This document shows positions 4,324-35,060 of a stretch of 64,000 nucleotides of DNA, piece by piece. The position numbers and the translations under genes were made by a program. Where the stretch lies: NCBI RefSeq assembly GCF_030412785.1, contig NZ_CP125297.1:372001-436000 (forward strand). The letters run 5' to 3'. Within the stretch, counting starts at the first letter, position 1. Every line of letters starts with the position of its first letter. The DNA comes from Paraburkholderia sabiae (GTDB lineage: Bacteria > Pseudomonadota > Gammaproteobacteria > Burkholderiales > Burkholderiaceae). Under the pieces are notes generated by a model. The model was not told where the DNA came from and searched no databases. It saw nothing but the letters and a program-made list of their open reading frames with translations.

Positions 4324-5856
4324 TATTTCGTTGAAAAACTCTGTTTTGGGCGAATGCGGTCATGTTTTGGCATACGATCGACGCGCTCAACGTTCTTTCC
4401 GATGACATTGCATCCGCGGATGCATGCCGCGATTCCTTTCAAGCGGATGCATTTTTCACCTCCTCCTGCTTTGGCATCAACCACTTCGCCATTCGCCTCA
4501 AATTCTGTGCGGTTGCAGCCAGCAAGAACTCGTCGTGTGCGCCTGAAGGTCCTCTCAACCGAAGACGATCCAGCTTCATGACACGTTTGAGGTGGGCAAA
4601 CAGGATCTCAACTTTCTTGCGATCTTTGCGTGACTGCCGATATGCCGGTGTCTTCGCAATAGCCCTTACCTTATCACGTGCTGATTCGTAGACACTTCGG
4701 GCAATCTTTCGTATCGGTGTGTTTGGGCAGCATTGATTCTTCAGTACACGTCCAGTGCAGTCCAACTGGTTTGATCGATAGACGACAGTGTTGGCCTTGG
4801 TGATGTGCGTGCGCGGACTCTTGAATGGACGCCGTTCGCTGCGCAGTGCGTGTCCAGCGGGGCAGCGATATTTGTTGCTTTGCTCAAGCCATTGAAACTC
4901 GCTATTCGAGAAGGTCTCGTCGCTCCGTGCCCCTTTCTCCCATACCGGAACTTGCGGCTCGATAGCCTTGTCATTGATCATCCAGGCAAGCATCGACGCG
5001 GTGGTCGAGTTCACCTCCTGTGTGCGGTATGCGGGTGTGGCCTCAACATCTACGATGATTCCTGCGTGCAGATCAATCAGGTAGTTGGTCGAGTAGGCGT
5101 AGAACGCCGGGCCACCAGGCGCTGCGGTCCAACGTGCAGCCGGATCGGTCAGCAAAATGTTCTTAGGCTGCGTGGCAGGTTCCTGCGATGCGTCCACGGC
5201 ATGGGCATCATCGTCGTTCTCATCGAGCGTCGCCAGATACTCGCGCACCGCGCGGCTGGGTCCTTCACCGCGACTCCTGTCGATTGTTTCAGTCCCCGCG
5301 ATGCCTCGGGTGCGATTTGCGTCGGCCTTGATCACACTCGCATCGATCGCGAACCCTTCGCCTCCTACGAGTCCCTCTTTCATGCAGCGACGCAAAACTG
5401 ATTCGAATACATGGCGGAGCATATCGCTGTCGCGAAACCGGCCATGGCGATTCTTTGAGAAGGTCGAGTGATCCGGAACCGCATCGTCAAGGCCGAGACG
5501 GCAAAACCAGCGATACGCCAGATTGGGATGGACTTCTTCACACAGACGCCGTTCGGAGCGAATTCCAAAGCAGTATCCGATGATCAGCATGCGGATCATC
5601 AACTCTGGATCAATAGATGGGCGCCCCGTATGACTGTAAAACGGCGCCATGTGCTTTCGGAGGTCGCCGGCATCGAAGAAGTGATTTATACCGCGTAACA
5701 GATGGTCTTTCGGAATGTGATCATCCAGGTTGAACGTGTAAAAAAGCCGGTCCTGATCGCCGCTCCGCTGACCCATCATGACGCTGCACTCCCGTCGATC
5801 GATGGATTCCAGGATACCCGAGAACTCGACTCCTAGGCGAGTTTTTCAACGGAATA
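4324..5856 (-). mobile_element. IS1182-family insertion sequence (copy 1)
   Basis: 1533 bp bounded by 18-bp terminal inverted repeats that differ at one base (TATTTCGTTGAAAAACTC at the left; reverse complement of the right end TATTCCGTTGAAAAACTC). Both ends are flanked by GGCC (4320-4323 and 5857-5860), read here as a 4-bp palindromic target duplication. The right GGCC plus AGAAG and the downstream CGGTCATTCGAC at 10112 reconstitute one copy of the dispersed repeat found across 34-50 kb, so the element inserted into that repeat. Confidence 0.85.
4439..5779 (-). CDS. IS1182-family transposase
   Basis: 446 residues, intact. The N-terminal domain has the FYTFNLDDHIPKDHLLR and GRPSIDPELMIRMLIIGY motifs of IS1182-type DDE transposases, followed by the HSTFSKNRHGRF segment; the C-terminal helix RKKVEILFAHLKRVMKLDRLRLRG carries the catalytic glutamate. 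It fills most of the element between the inverted repeats at 4324 and 5856. It appears potentially active, since no frameshift or stop was found. Confidence 0.93.
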   Translation of the reverse strand: MMGQRSGDQDRLFYTFNLDDHIPKDHLLRGINHFFDAGDLRKHMAPFYSHTGRPSIDPELMIRMLIIGYCFGIRSERRLCEEVHPNLAYRWFCRLGLDDAVPDHSTFSKNRHGRFRDSDMLRHVFESVLRRCMKEGLVGGEGFAIDASVIKADANRTRGIAGTETIDRSRGEGPSRAVREYLATLDENDDDAHAVDASQEPATQPKNILLTDPAARWTAAPGGPAFYAYSTNYLIDLHAGIIVDVEATPAYRTQEVNSTTASMLAWMINDKAIEPQVPVWEKGARSDETFSNSEFQWLEQSNKYRCPAGHALRSERRPFKSPRTHITKANTVVYRSNQLDCTGRVLKNQCCPNTPIRKIARSVYESARDKVRAIAKTPAYRQSRKDRKKVEILFAHLKRVMKLDRLRLRGPSGAHDEFLLAATAQNLRRMAKWLMPKQEEVKNASA

Positions 5857-6774
5857 GGCCAGAAGCAATGGGATGGACTCCTCCTCACCCGGCTGGCTCG
5901 CGGCGCACGGCGCATGATTGTCGTCGCGTTCGACCAGTCAACGAGGAGGAACCTGAAATGGACATGATTCGTGTTGGGATTGATCTCGCCAAAAACGTTT
6001 TCCAGATGCATGGCGTCGATCGAAGCGAGAAAGCAATATGGCGCCGCAAGCTTACCCGTCTGGAATGGCTGGATGTCGTGCAACGGACCGTTCCTCTGCA
6101 TGCCGTGATAGGCATGGAAGCCTGCGGCAGTGCGCATCACTGGGCGCGACGTCTTCAGGCGATCGGATATACCGTGAAGCTGATAGCCCCGCAGTTTGTG
6201 AAGCCATACGTCAAGAGTCACAAAAACGACGCAAACGACGCCGAAGCTATCTGTGAAGCGATGAGCCGGCCTGGAATGCGCTTTGTTGCCGTCAAGACCG
6301 TCGAGCAGCAGGACGTGCAGGCGGTTCACCGCGTCCGCGCCGGATTAATGGAGCAACGTAACGCAAAGGCAAACCAGATTCGCGGCCTGACCTCCGAATA
6401 TGGCATTGTGGCGCCCCGAGAGATTCTCCAGTTGCGCCGCGCTGTTCCTGTCTGGCTAGAAGACGTAAACAGCGGTCTGAGCGACCGATTCCGGCGTCTG
6501 CTCACGGGGCTGTGGGAGGACCTGCGCTCCCTGGACGACCGGATTCGCGAACTCGATCGTGAAATTGCTGCGATTGCCGCATCCGATCCCGTCGCCAGAC
6601 GTTTGCAGCAATTACGCGGCGTTGGGCCAATGGTTGCAACGGCGTTGATCGCAACCGTGGGCAATGCCCGACAGTTTTCCAATGGCCGGCAGATGGCGGC
6701 GTCGCTCGGACTGACACCCAGACAAAACAGCTCCGGTGGCAAAGAGCGGCTTCTAGGGATTAGCAAGAGAGGTG

Positions 6775-8286
6775 CTTGCAATTACCCACTTCTTTTTAGC
6801 GCGAGTTCATAGCCGATCTGGATGTCAGTCAGACGTCGCATCCCACGCCACATCACGGTATTGCCCGGCGGAGGGTCACTGGCACGCGCAAGGTAACCAC
6901 CGAGCTGGGCGAGCCTGATGACGTTGCGCACGAGCGGTGGTGCCTGTGCGTTATGAGACGTGTCCTGAACGACGTGTTCAAGCAGGTCGATTTCGGTGCG
7001 TGTGAACGCGAGTTCGGCTGCGGCCCGTGGCGCCGAGCGGCCGAGCATGGTGATCCAGAATATGCGCCAGCTCAGGATGCAGAAGACTGCGATCAGGTTC
7101 GTTAGCCGGTCGGCTGTACGAAGTCGGGACTCTTCGGCCTTGCAGCCCGACTTCAGGATTTTGTGGAAGGTTTCGATTTTCCAGCGCATTGCATACCAGT
7201 CAAGTTTCTCGATTGCCTCGGCACGAGAGCGGACCGGCAGGTTGGTGATGAGTTTCCATTCTATAGGGGCACGCCCGGGCGGCGGATCTCGCTCCTGCGC
7301 GTGAAGTACTGTTAGCTGTAACGCGGGGTAGCGGCTCTGCTTGCCGATGGGCGGCAGAACAGTCATTGGCGCATAGCGCAGTTCGAGCGTCGCGGTCATC
7401 GGACGGCCCTTCGCATCGCGAAGCTCGACGCGATGGAGTCCCTTTACCTGAACCTGCCGCATGGCTTTGGAGATCGTGTGCTGACCATCTCCCGCGAGCC
7501 TGTCGACACAGGTACGCACGAGGAAGTAGGTGGAAAGATCATATGCGGTGCAAAACAGCTCGTAGATGTCGCTTTCCCGGTCACCGATGTGAATGCAACG
7601 CACAGGATCGTCGAGAAGTTCAGTCGACTGGCGCATATTTTCCAGCCAGCGCCAGCTTTCCTTTTCCTCAATCGGTACGCGCGTGGGATTGATATGACGC
7701 TTGAGTTCAGAAGCCCCCTTGAACTGCTTTCTTGTCCAGAATTTCACTGCAGCCAGACCAAGTGGCAATCCATCGGCAGTAACAGCAAGACTCGAATGCA
7801 TCAGGATGCCGCATTGCGTGAGCGGTCGTCGCGGGCCCCTGCCGTTCTTCCCCGTGCGCAGGGTCGTCTTGCCCGTGTAGCCGATGAGTTCGGGACGCTC
7901 GCGCTGGTACGAGAATGCGGTCGTGTCCTGCAGGATAAGCACCGGCCCATCGGTGGCCTTCACACGCTCGGCGCTCGCCTGGAAATGTCCGCTCAGGATA
8001 TCGTGTTCGCTGACGCGGTCATTGGACAGAAACCGGTACGCAGCCTTGGTCGAAGCCCAGTCCTGACAGGCGAACGGGATCGTCTGCCCCATGCCGTCCC
8101 ACAGCTTCTCGAGCAGGCTTGCGAAGCGGCGGCGCAGCCTGGTGTCCTGGAATTCGCTTCCCTGGACTTCCAGATCGAACCACGAACGATCATCCGCGTG
8201 TCGCTTACCGGCCATCCCGCGTGCGTATGGAATGTGACGTATGCCAGGTTACCAGGTTTCGCGCTGGAGATGTGGGTAATTGCAAG
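6775..8286 (-). mobile_element. IS4-family insertion sequence (Tn5/IS50-like group) with 9-bp target duplication
   Basis: 1512 bp. Terminal repeats CTTGCAATTACCCAC (left, 6775-6789) and its exact complement (right, 8272-8286) flank the transposase gene. The direct repeat AGAGAGGTG on both sides (6766-6774 and 8287-8295) is the target duplication within the IS110-family transposase of element A. The 9-bp duplication fits the IS4 family. Confidence 0.93.
6782..8215 (-). CDS. IS4-family transposase
   Basis: 477 residues, full length and intact. An N-terminal DNA-binding region (FQDTRLRRRFASLLEKL, QDWASTKAAYRFLSNDRV) is followed by the RNase H-fold domain. LQDTTAFSY holds the first catalytic Asp, IHIGDRESDIYELF the second, and WYAMRWKIETFHKILKSGC the Y-R-E-K signature with the catalytic Glu. 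The ATG at 8215 lies about 70 bp inside the right terminal repeat. The gene ends so close to the left terminus that its last codons nearly reach the repeat. Confidence 0.94.
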   Translation of the reverse strand: MAGKRHADDRSWFDLEVQGSEFQDTRLRRRFASLLEKLWDGMGQTIPFACQDWASTKAAYRFLSNDRVSEHDILSGHFQASAERVKATDGPVLILQDTTAFSYQRERPELIGYTGKTTLRTGKNGRGPRRPLTQCGILMHSSLAVTADGLPLGLAAVKFWTRKQFKGASELKRHINPTRVPIEEKESWRWLENMRQSTELLDDPVRCIHIGDRESDIYELFCTAYDLSTYFLVRTCVDRLAGDGQHTISKAMRQVQVKGLHRVELRDAKGRPMTATLELRYAPMTVLPPIGKQSRYPALQLTVLHAQERDPPPGRAPIEWKLITNLPVRSRAEAIEKLDWYAMRWKIETFHKILKSGCKAEESRLRTADRLTNLIAVFCILSWRIFWITMLGRSAPRAAAELAFTRTEIDLLEHVVQDTSHNAQAPPLVRNVIRLAQLGGYLARASDPPPGNTVMWRGMRRLTDIQIGYELALKRSG

Positions 8287-8510
8287 AGAGAGGTGACGCT
8301 TACGTGCGTTGCCTGTTAATCCACGGCGCACGCGCGATGATCCAGATGGCCCGTCGACGGACTGATGCGCTAAGTCTGTGGGTCATGCGCATAGCGGGCA
8401 GCCGGCATCCGAACATTGCAGCCGTAGCGCTAGCAAACAAAACCGCACGCATAGCCTGGGCGATGATTACACGGGAAACCGATTACCAGCCGGAACTTGC
8501 CGCACATTGA

Positions 8511-8697
8511 AACAGTAACTACCAGCAGTACCTTCATCCACGATTGCAAAACAAGTCGCACGATGGCCAACAGGTCGAACCGGCGCTGATCAAACCCGTG
8601 ACTGACCGAGGCCTTGAGCCCGTAGGAGCGATTGGGAGTCAGCGCGCGAATAGCCCATCAGGGTCCGTTGCCTCACAGAGGCACAGTTGTACGAGAC
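8511..8697 (+). ncRNA. Candidate bridge/seekRNA region of element A (5' part; continues at 10041)
   Basis: The non-coding stretch after the element A transposase is where IS1111-group elements encode their target-guiding RNA. Its core from 8535 (CATCCACGATTGC) aligns with the region after the element B transposase starting at 9809. Aligned positions 67-74 (8601-8608, ACTGACCG) are complementary to CGGTCAGT, which matches the right target flank CGGTCATT at 10112 in 7 of 8 bases. A second segment AGGAGCG at 8624-8630 resembles the repeat consensus left of the junction. Element B has inserted at 8698, separating the 3' part (10041-10094). Expression is inferred. Confidence 0.5.
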
Positions 8698-8762
8698 TGA
8701 TGGTATGGACTCCCGCCCCCTTCGGGGCGACACTGATCTCACCAATTTCCGGGAGAACATCT

Positions 8763-9776
8763 ATGCCTGCGCTCACCATTGGTCTCGATATTGCGAAGAA
8801 CGTATTCCAGGTTTATTGCGTCGATCGTGGTGGCAGACCTGTCATACAGCGGAAGCTCCGTCGAGCAGATGTGTTGAAGTTCTTCTCGAAACTGGAACGA
8901 AGCCTGATCGGCATCGAAGCGTGTCATGGTTCGCACTTCTGGGCCCGTGAACTGAGCTCGCAAGGGCATACGGTGCGCCTTCTGCCAACGCAATATGTGA
9001 AACCCTTTCTGGTCGGTGGCAAGAACGATGCGAATGACGCTTCGGCCATCTGCGCGGCGGTGTCACGACCTGGCATTCATCCGGTACCGATCAAAAGCGC
9101 TGAACAGCAGTCACTGCAGTCGGTTCATCGTATGCGTGAGCGGCTCGTTCACGAGCGAACAGCGAAATCAAACCAGATACGAAGCATGTTTGCCGAAGAG
9201 GGGTTCATCTTTCCAATGGGTATCGTTCATTTAAGACAGGGTGTCGTGGCACTCGTGAATGATGCTGATGCCCGCATCACGATCCTGCTTCGACGGCTTG
9301 GCTCAATGTACATCGAACAGTTGGCAGCGTTACAGCGATGGATCGACGAACTCGCTTCCGAGATTGCCGAGATATTCAAACGCAATGAAAGCTGCCAGCG
9401 TCTCGCTACGGTACCCGGGATTGGACCGCTCGTAGCAACCGCATTGTTCAGCGGCGTCGGAGATCCACAGCAGTTCAGGAACGGGCGGCAGTTCGCAGCG
9501 TGGTTGGGTCTGACGCCCAGGCAGCGATCAAGCGGTGGCAAGTCAAAGCTGGGCAGCATCACAAAGCATGGCGACACCTATCTCCGCACCCTGCTGGTCC
9601 AGGGCGCGCGCGCTGTAATGCGCTTTGTAGACCGTCGTGACGACCGACATAGTCGCTGGATCAAAGCTGTGATGCAGCGCCGCCACGTGAGCATCGCTGC
9701 AATCGCGCTCGCGAACAAGACGGCGCGAATTGCGTGGGCAATACTGACGAGCAATGACAGCTTCAGGCTGGCGTAG
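8763..9776 (+). CDS. IS110-family transposase of element B
   Basis: 337 residues, intact. The start ATG at 8763 follows CCGGGAG. The DEDD RuvC-like domain shows Asp8 (GLDIAKN), Glu in GIEACHG and Asp pair in KNDANDASA. The C-terminal transposase_20 domain has VPGIGPLVATALF, NGRQFAAWLGLTPRQ and RSSGGKSKLGSITKHGD with the serine used in the IS110 mechanism. It is related to, but clearly different from, the interrupted transposase of element A. It is probably functional and accompanied by its own guide RNA region. Confidence 0.94.
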   Translation: MPALTIGLDIAKNVFQVYCVDRGGRPVIQRKLRRADVLKFFSKLERSLIGIEACHGSHFWARELSSQGHTVRLLPTQYVKPFLVGGKNDANDASAICAAVSRPGIHPVPIKSAEQQSLQSVHRMRERLVHERTAKSNQIRSMFAEEGFIFPMGIVHLRQGVVALVNDADARITILLRRLGSMYIEQLAALQRWIDELASEIAEIFKRNESCQRLATVPGIGPLVATALFSGVGDPQQFRNGRQFAAWLGLTPRQRSSGGKSKLGSITKHGDTYLRTLLVQGARAVMRFVDRRDDRHSRWIKAVMQRRHVSIAAIALANKTARIAWAILTSNDSFRLA

Positions 9777-10024
9777 CTCGCTTGTAACGCATCGAAGTAA
9801 TTTCACTCCATCCACGATTGCGCAAGAAGCGGCAAGCATGGCGAACCGGTCGGACCGGCGCTTGTAGATCCTGATATATCCGGCGGCTGCATCAAGAAGC
9901 CAGGAGGCCGATGAGGGACAAGCGCGCAAACGTCCATGATGGCTCGTGCCGATGGCCGGCACATAAAAAGCCGAATGTACGGACGCAGTCGAGACCTTCA
10001 AAATGCACACCGATCTTGCTCATA
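9777..10024 (+). ncRNA. Candidate bridge/seekRNA of element B
   Basis: This non-coding region lies between the transposase stop and the right subterminal repeat. From 9809 it aligns with the element A counterpart (CATCCACGATTGC and the GGTCG-ACCGGCGCT block). At aligned positions 67-74 (9875-9882) TATATCCG is the exact complement of CGGATATA, the 8 bases directly right of the element B insertion (10041-10048). This is what a target-binding loop of an IS1111 guide RNA should look like. The RNA itself has not been shown. Confidence 0.55.
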
Positions 10025-10111
10025 GGCGGGAGTCCATGTACGGATATACGTGAGCAATCGACACCGAGGCTTGACAAGCGACGTGTTTGCAAACGAGGAG
10101 GAGTCCATATA

Positions 10112-10150
10112 CGGTCATTCGACATGCGACGACGGATAGTTGACAATTGC
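10112..10150 (+). repeat. Dispersed repeat copy, right part, split by the IS stack (left part GGCCAGAAG at 5857-5865)
   Basis: CGGTCATTCGAC...GATAGTTGACAAT matches the 45-bp degenerate repeat found repeatedly at 34-50 kb. Its left part lies immediately after the IS1182-family element. As with most other copies it lies a short distance (about 20 bp) upstream of a co-directional gene. Confidence 0.7.
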
Positions 10151-34870: not shown

Positions 34871-35060
34871 GAGAGATTGGGAGTTTATGAGGGAAGCGCC
34901 GAGAATCAATAGCCCGGCGGCCTCGGTCAACGGAAGGCCCGCCTCCCCGCGAATGGCCGCTTCTGGAAGCACCACGGTCCCTTGTGGGGGTCGCCTATGC
35001 CCTTTGCATGAAAGGCCTCGCCTGCGACGATCACCATGCTTGGTCGTCGGGCGCTAGCCG

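Follow-up and report, generated by a model that had tools for sequence, protein, structure and literature searches.

Programmable recombination by the guide RNAs of IS110 and IS1111 insertion sequences (ISs) was described only recently. That IS1111 elements choose targets through a guide RNA is already known (PMC11187229), and the available part of that report gives a family motif, GL-P----S(t)G, located in the C-terminal domain, and describes subterminal inverted repeats (sTIRs) with a 7-bp left extension. In the literature, as far as its text was available, the donor-binding loop of IS1111 RNAs is predicted and not solved. Here we analyse a locus of Paraburkholderia sabiae in which one IS1111-type element, B, is inserted into the guide-RNA region of another, A. 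The window, that is the whole stretch of 64,000 nucleotides under analysis, is part of a 9.9-Mb genome; coordinates are window positions, and features lie on the forward strand unless stated otherwise.

Results

Element A (5866-10111) contains two insertions, an IS4-like element and B. It is delimited by its sTIRs (ATGGACTCCTCCTC, 5873-5886, and GAGGAGGAGTCCAT, 10095-10108, with extensions of 7 bp on the left and 3 bp on the right) and by ends that are identical in the uninterrupted copies L167, L175, L168 and L169. The first part of its transposase (5958-6774) runs up to the IS4-like insertion and carries the DEDD_Tnp_IS110 and Transposase_20 domains; the last part (8287-8510) is a profile match to transposase positions 261-327. 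The IS4/Tn5-like element between them (6775-8286, reverse strand) was recognised by Pfam matches (PF14706, PF02281, PF01609), its inverted repeats and its junctions, and is flanked by 9-bp repeats, AGAGAGGTG. Since this insertion and its 9-bp duplication come in addition to B, A is broken twice. The guide-RNA region of A is likewise divided, into a portion upstream of B (8511-8697) and a remainder that includes the right end of A (10041-10111), the two being contiguous in uninterrupted relatives. These uninterrupted A-type copies align with the window to 8697 (the best is 98% identical) and then continue directly with CGGATATACG, which fixes the limits of both elements and upholds the nesting proposed by an earlier, sequence-only reading of this DNA. 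A DUF772/DDE_Tnp_1_6 transposase gene (4439-5779) starts about 90 bp from the left end of A.

Element B (8698-10040) is a complete IS1111-type IS of 1343 bp, defined by its sTIRs (ATGGACTCCCGCC, 8705-8717, and GGCGGGAGTCCAT, 10025-10037) and present in five copies in its own genome. It looks intact, judging by its subterminal inverted repeats, its transposase of 337 residues (8763-9776; Pfam PF01548 and PF02371) and the 264-nt non-coding region downstream of the gene (9777-10040), in which a guide RNA is predicted from the consensus fold of 17 B-clade sequences.

Both A and B are IS1111-type elements. The DEDD_Tnp_IS110 and Transposase_20 domains are present in each, and the family motif reads GLTPRQRSSG in B and GLTPRQNSSG in A. 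A right terminal extension of 3 bp is usual in IS1111 elements, and here too subterminal inverted repeats with terminal extensions are found, with no bases added at the target. A long non-coding stretch (264 nt in B) follows the transposase gene, two segments facing each other across one loop match opposite strands of the target, the top-strand match (TATATCCGG) preceding AGGCCG, and there is a donor-binding loop with a guide that copies the element's own end, as in the bridge-RNA architecture. A search of the non-coding regions of L134, L135, L136, L005 and L077 with Rfam models (E up to 0.1) gave no match there, the one group II intron returned being in L135 only, and a scan of viral contigs with the B protein found no relative.

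In the non-coding region of B, the segment TATATCCG (9875-9882) is the exact complement of the right flank CGGATATA (10041-10048), an 8-mer match of which about 0.004 would be expected by chance anywhere in the RNA of about 230 nt. All five copies of B in the genome (96.7-100% identical to one another) share the guide and the right flank CGGATATA and match at 8/8. The aligned segment of A, ACTGACCG (8601-8608), is complementary to its right flank CGGTCATT (10112-10119) at 7/8 positions, with a chance expectation of about 0.09 anywhere in the RNA and about 0.0004 at the one aligned position. Both matches stand at the positions at which the sequence-only reading had placed them. The 7/8 match of A is weak by itself; the weight of the guide interpretation comes from other copies, namely the five of B at 8/8 and nine of the A family.

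Across the B clade, 37 copies could be compared. The guide matched the right flank at 8/8 positions in 22, at least 7 in 28 and at least 6 in 36; nine matched at 6/8 or fewer, four of them at CGTTTATA hosts. Loci lacking the guide region or the right end were omitted from this count (L052-L055, L060, L061/L110, L067, L068, L072, L074, L098, L102 and L109); the right flanks of L052, L053, L054, L055 and L060 are CGGATAAA, TGGATATA, CGTTTATA, CGGCTATA and CGTTTATA, respectively. The guide itself is nearly invariant, reading TATATCCG in 33/37 copies, and the four copies with other guides match their flanks at 8/8 (L177), 7/8 (L066 and L079) and 6/8 (L065). Guide tracking within the B clade is thus limited. 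In the B-clade copy L078, and likewise in L041 and L132, a 13-bp piece of the right end, GGGAGTCCATGTA, is doubled before the target (at approximately 4536-4564 in L078).

The consensus fold of the B clade, built from 17 of 18 stretches (L115 excluded), sets the guide between two helices: one of 8 pairs, 6 of which show double changes, and an apical one of 4 pairs, 2 of which do. Within the guide, short pairings to the opposite guide strand are drawn for three of the eight columns, and these pairings show no double changes. The right-target guide, TATATCCGG (9875-9883), faces a second segment in the same loop, AGGCCG (9905-9910), which we assign as the left-target guide: in 3/5 own-genome copies its letters are those of the left flank followed by the core (AGGC|CG). 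A location between covarying helices, together with pairing to the right flank in other copies, bears out the assignment of the aligned segment as a right-target guide, and for B it places the segment outside a conserved stem. A fold of ten IS884-like empty hosts gave weak structure with part of the target paired, and the B-clade fold was relied on instead.

In the A family, nine copies (L173 and L174 excluded) were compared over the positions corresponding to 8598-8608. The guide pairs with its own right flank at 81/99 positions, and 158/20000 shuffles were as good. Where the guides differ, the flanks tend to differ accordingly, and one change is compensatory: L168 pairs at 11/11 positions, L170, in which an altered guide accompanies a matching altered flank, at 9/11, and A of the window at 8/11. 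The earlier claim that variable guides have tracked different targets is qualified by the near-invariance of the guide within the B clade. Of the two outcomes which that reading had held would count against a guide, copies with mismatching flanks and a position in a conserved stem, neither applies to B; L167 and L175, with the same guide as A of the window, pair at only 8/11 and 7/11 positions. The site of A resembles a dispersed motif like GGCCAGGAGCGGTCGTTC, with six hits in the window at three mismatches or fewer against 0.10 expected. In agreement with the earlier suggestion, A seems to target this motif. The hits lie at 34951, 35934, 36315, 44637, 46508 and 50249.

The sequence-only reading had not recognised what B targets, namely guide-RNA genes belonging to other IS1111 elements. 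Each of the five own-genome copies of B has the profile match of a different IS1111 transposase 218-247 nt upstream, and all occupy one homologous position; their left flanks are recognisably homologous because every copy sits behind an IS1111 transposase. A scan of one genome per species yielded 58 related loci, those close to B being in Paraburkholderia, Burkholderia, Caballeronia, Cupriavidus, Xenorhabdus, Photorhabdus and a Kiloniellaceae bacterium. Among 26 B-clade copies with a left flank, the own five included (L070, L074, L075, L078, L098 and L104, with no left end found, do not enter this count), 18 are preceded on the same strand by an IS110-family transposase that ends 178-269 nt from the site. 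A further six (L062, L068, L071, L073, L110 and L128) have similar flanking loop sequence, as judged by eye, and no transposase at that spacing; L062 has just 77 nt of upstream sequence, and transposase matches 582 nt (L128) and 1537 nt (L071) upstream were not taken as hosts. The remaining two, L069 and L083, lie outside IS1111 genes; the site of L069 is an exact CGGATATA. With distances taken from the transposase start, a host-type neighbour is found upstream of 18/30 B-clade copies, a set that includes L070, L074, L075, L098 and L104 (all without a host transposase there), versus 0/25 more distant control relatives with enough upstream sequence. The sources of the loci overlap, and each was counted once as far as could be told. 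In E. coli MSI001, a gap of 282 nt separates two IS110 transposase genes, of which the first carries a frameshift according to the annotation. A B-clade copy on a Xenorhabdus plasmid sits in sequence resembling that of host RNAs; the annotation shows no IS110 gene upstream of it.

In 59 genomes, the 12-mer AGGCCGGATATA has 23 exact occurrences. Fifteen of them are in IS1111 loops (12 behind an IS110 transposase and three in loop-like sequence with a right end) and eight are elsewhere; within the genus, 13/15 sites are in IS1111 loops. Elsewhere in the P. sabiae genome (C3:155276-160425), an IS1111 host, B, a second IS1111 host and B form an array of about 5 kb on one strand. Five non-B elements of this genome were flagged for a neighbouring IS1111 match, of which L027-L029 (gaps of 2-5 nt) were taken to adjoin their own broken N-terminus. 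The two left are L014 (C3:221724-222698) and L015 (C4:365290-366294), whose genes start 412 and 348 nt, respectively, behind another IS1111 transposase match; since they too adjoin IS1111 transposases, the habit may not be exclusive to the B clade.

Within the host gene, B is inserted in the donor-binding loop, where a segment repeats the sequence of the host's right end. In A, the left half of the target (8690-8697) was placed within this loop by the homologous left flanks of other B copies and by uninterrupted A relatives, and the right half is the A donor guide itself, CGGATATA (10041-10048), which copies the right end ..CATATA. The donor guide of B, CGAATGTA (9972-9979), copies in turn the right end of B, ..ATGTA. 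Over five bases the donor guide is identical to the right end in 29/30 IS1111 elements, with 0/20000 shuffles as good, where pentamers were assigned by hand, a script confirmed their occurrence in their loci, and the shuffles ignore relatedness; where the right end is not ATATA, guide and end are equal in 14/15 elements. In E. coli MSI001 the guide is TGTATCCG, the target CGGATACA and the host end CATACA, with host end, host donor guide and B-like guide all differing in concert. The donor guide of B differs from the B target at only 2/8 bases. In the B clade the target guide matches the element's own donor guide at a mean of 5.9/8 positions and real targets at 7.3/8, the real target fitting better in 28 of 37 copies, equally in eight and worse in one. 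Immunity through a mismatched own site was considered; some real targets, such as that of L080, are as mismatched as the own donor guide, and we therefore make no claim of immunity.

The B copies are independent insertions. While the five copies are 96.7-100% identical, the transposases of their five hosts are 37-67% identical (some compared over 120-266 residues, with A represented by L167). In a quick tree of 57 rows, a single clade (SH-aLRT 99) holds the 15 rows of B-clade transposases; the seven host rows are divided between two clades, and the uninterrupted relative of A belongs to a third. Empty sites are widespread: the joined flanks of L071 were covered over at least 80% in 441 plasmid records and in 520/5426 E. 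coli genomes (60-90% identity), many of these records being near-duplicates, and each of the best 40 plasmid and best 10 E. coli matches listed is in one piece. The CGTTTATA-type empty site was found in 12 plasmid records, two of them over at least 80%, and the A-type in two (73-74% identity). Four empty regions, L134-L137, representing each of three host types once or twice, all have an IS110-family transposase upstream. IS884, an IS110-like element of Cupriavidus necator H16 pHG1, is an uninterrupted host-type element with GGCCGAATATA at the site. In the P. sabiae genome, GGCCGGATATA occurs once uninterrupted, in sequence unlike an IS, and variants such as CGGATGCA, CGGATACA, CGTTTATA and CGCATATA are found in those unoccupied IS1111 elements that were examined.

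Discussion

The insertion site, its boundaries, the guide match, the identity of the hosts and the covariation are direct observations on DNA. From them we propose that the B clade very probably consists of IS1111-type ISs with a guide RNA directed at the genes that encode the guide RNAs of other IS1111 elements. In its target-binding loop, TATATCCGG (right) and AGGCCG (left) would jointly specify ..AGGC|CGGATATA, a sequence that lies in the donor-binding loop of other IS1111 guide RNAs, in the segment copying the last bases of the right end. The B transposase, led by the B RNA, probably recognises the host donor-binding loop and inserts B just 5' of the host's end-matching guide, in a single orientation. 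This leaves the host its target loop and separates its donor guide from the rest of the RNA by 1.3 kb, a displacement that probably leaves it unable to pair with its own ends. The B RNA is presumably made and bound by the transposase, insertion in these elements is presumably RNA-guided, the host's mobility would be lost and B might benefit from the insertion. Since the B guide is antisense to the host donor guide, interference with the host at the RNA level is also possible. Several observations count against the proposal: nine of 37 B-clade copies fit their site at six or fewer positions, two of 26 copies lie outside IS1111 genes, eight of 23 exact 12-mer sites are elsewhere than in IS1111 loops, L014 and L015 also adjoin IS1111 transposases, the donor guide of B is only two bases removed from its target, which makes avoidance of its own site hard to account for, and three of eight guide columns are drawn as paired in the consensus fold.

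Several other explanations bear on this proposal. Complementarity between short segments could arise by chance, and the 7/8 match of A alone is unremarkable; given 8/8 matches in 22/37 B-clade copies and the tracking of flanks by guides both in E. coli MSI001 and in the A family (where 158/20000 shuffles did as well), the probability that chance accounts for the pattern is negligible. Were the arrangement inherited from a single ancestral composite of host and B that moved as a unit, it would be the same wherever the host is found, as it is; near-identical B copies (96.7-100%) in hosts of only 37-67% identity and uninterrupted elements of all three host types make such an origin extremely improbable. 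Homologous recombination between related guide-RNA genes might have put B-type ends at these sites, and by eye the RNA layout is alike in B and its hosts. As the junctions in A are exact at the IS ends, the sTIRs complete and the uninterrupted relatives lack nothing, we consider recombination very unlikely.

A further alternative concerns meaning and not mechanism, and is compatible with RNA-programmed targeting. Other IS1111 elements may serve B as a safe haven, being abundant, dispensable DNA with a conserved sequence, so that harm to the host would be a by-product without selective meaning. Repeated targets are described for other IS1111 elements in the available part of PMC11187229 (REP for ISPa11, attC for ISKpn4), and element A too seems aimed at a dispersed motif. 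Against this, the sequence that B occupies is under constraint in the rival's RNA, an indirect argument given that a conserved safe site would be constrained as well; we see this alternative as evenly poised. RNA-programmed targeting of guide-RNA genes, our preferred mechanism, also admits a stronger interpretation that we advance only tentatively: B could represent an old IS lineage, spread over alpha-, beta- and gammaproteobacteria, that lives by RNA-guided sabotage of related ISs. It would be aimed at the one RNA segment that a host cannot change without changing its own end, the host's end and donor guide would coevolve with the attacker's guide, and the antisense guide could inhibit the host RNA directly.

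In a literature search that left subscription papers and bioRxiv largely, and ISfinder entirely, outside its scope, we found no description of an IS that targets guide-RNA genes belonging to other ISs, and the available part of a large-scale IS survey (PMC9208149) contains nothing on such elements. The B clade offers natural sequence evidence for the use of IS110/IS1111 guide RNAs by one element against another. The three-way relation, in which the host's end and donor guide correspond to the attacker's guide, speaks for a donor-binding loop in the RNAs of IS1111 elements. Moreover, conflict between ISs by RNA guidance becomes directly testable, and natural guide-target pairs with known mismatches are supplied.

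Among known elements, IS884 is of the host type and, unlike B, not an attacker. The IS1111-family elements IS4321 and IS5075 reportedly lie in the terminal repeats of Tn21-family transposons (attributed to Partridge and Hall, 2003). Like B, they are IS1111 elements targeting a functional sequence of another mobile element; their host sequence is a transposon end, whereas that of B is a guide-RNA gene of the same superfamily. With the seekRNA elements ISEc11, ISPa11, ISKpn4 and ISPst6, as described in the available part of PMC11187229, B shares a DEDD transposase, sTIRs with a 7-bp left extension, a guide RNA 3' of the transposase gene and a top-strand followed by a bottom-strand target match; it differs in that its target is the guide-RNA gene of another IS1111 element and its RNA is predicted from DNA. 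As in the IS110/IS621 bridge RNA, according to the available parts of PMC11208160 and PMC11208158, the predicted B RNA has target- and donor-binding loops, with donor guides that correspond to the core and the ends of the element itself. In contrast to that system, the B RNA is encoded downstream and not upstream of the gene, and its target is the donor-binding loop of another element.
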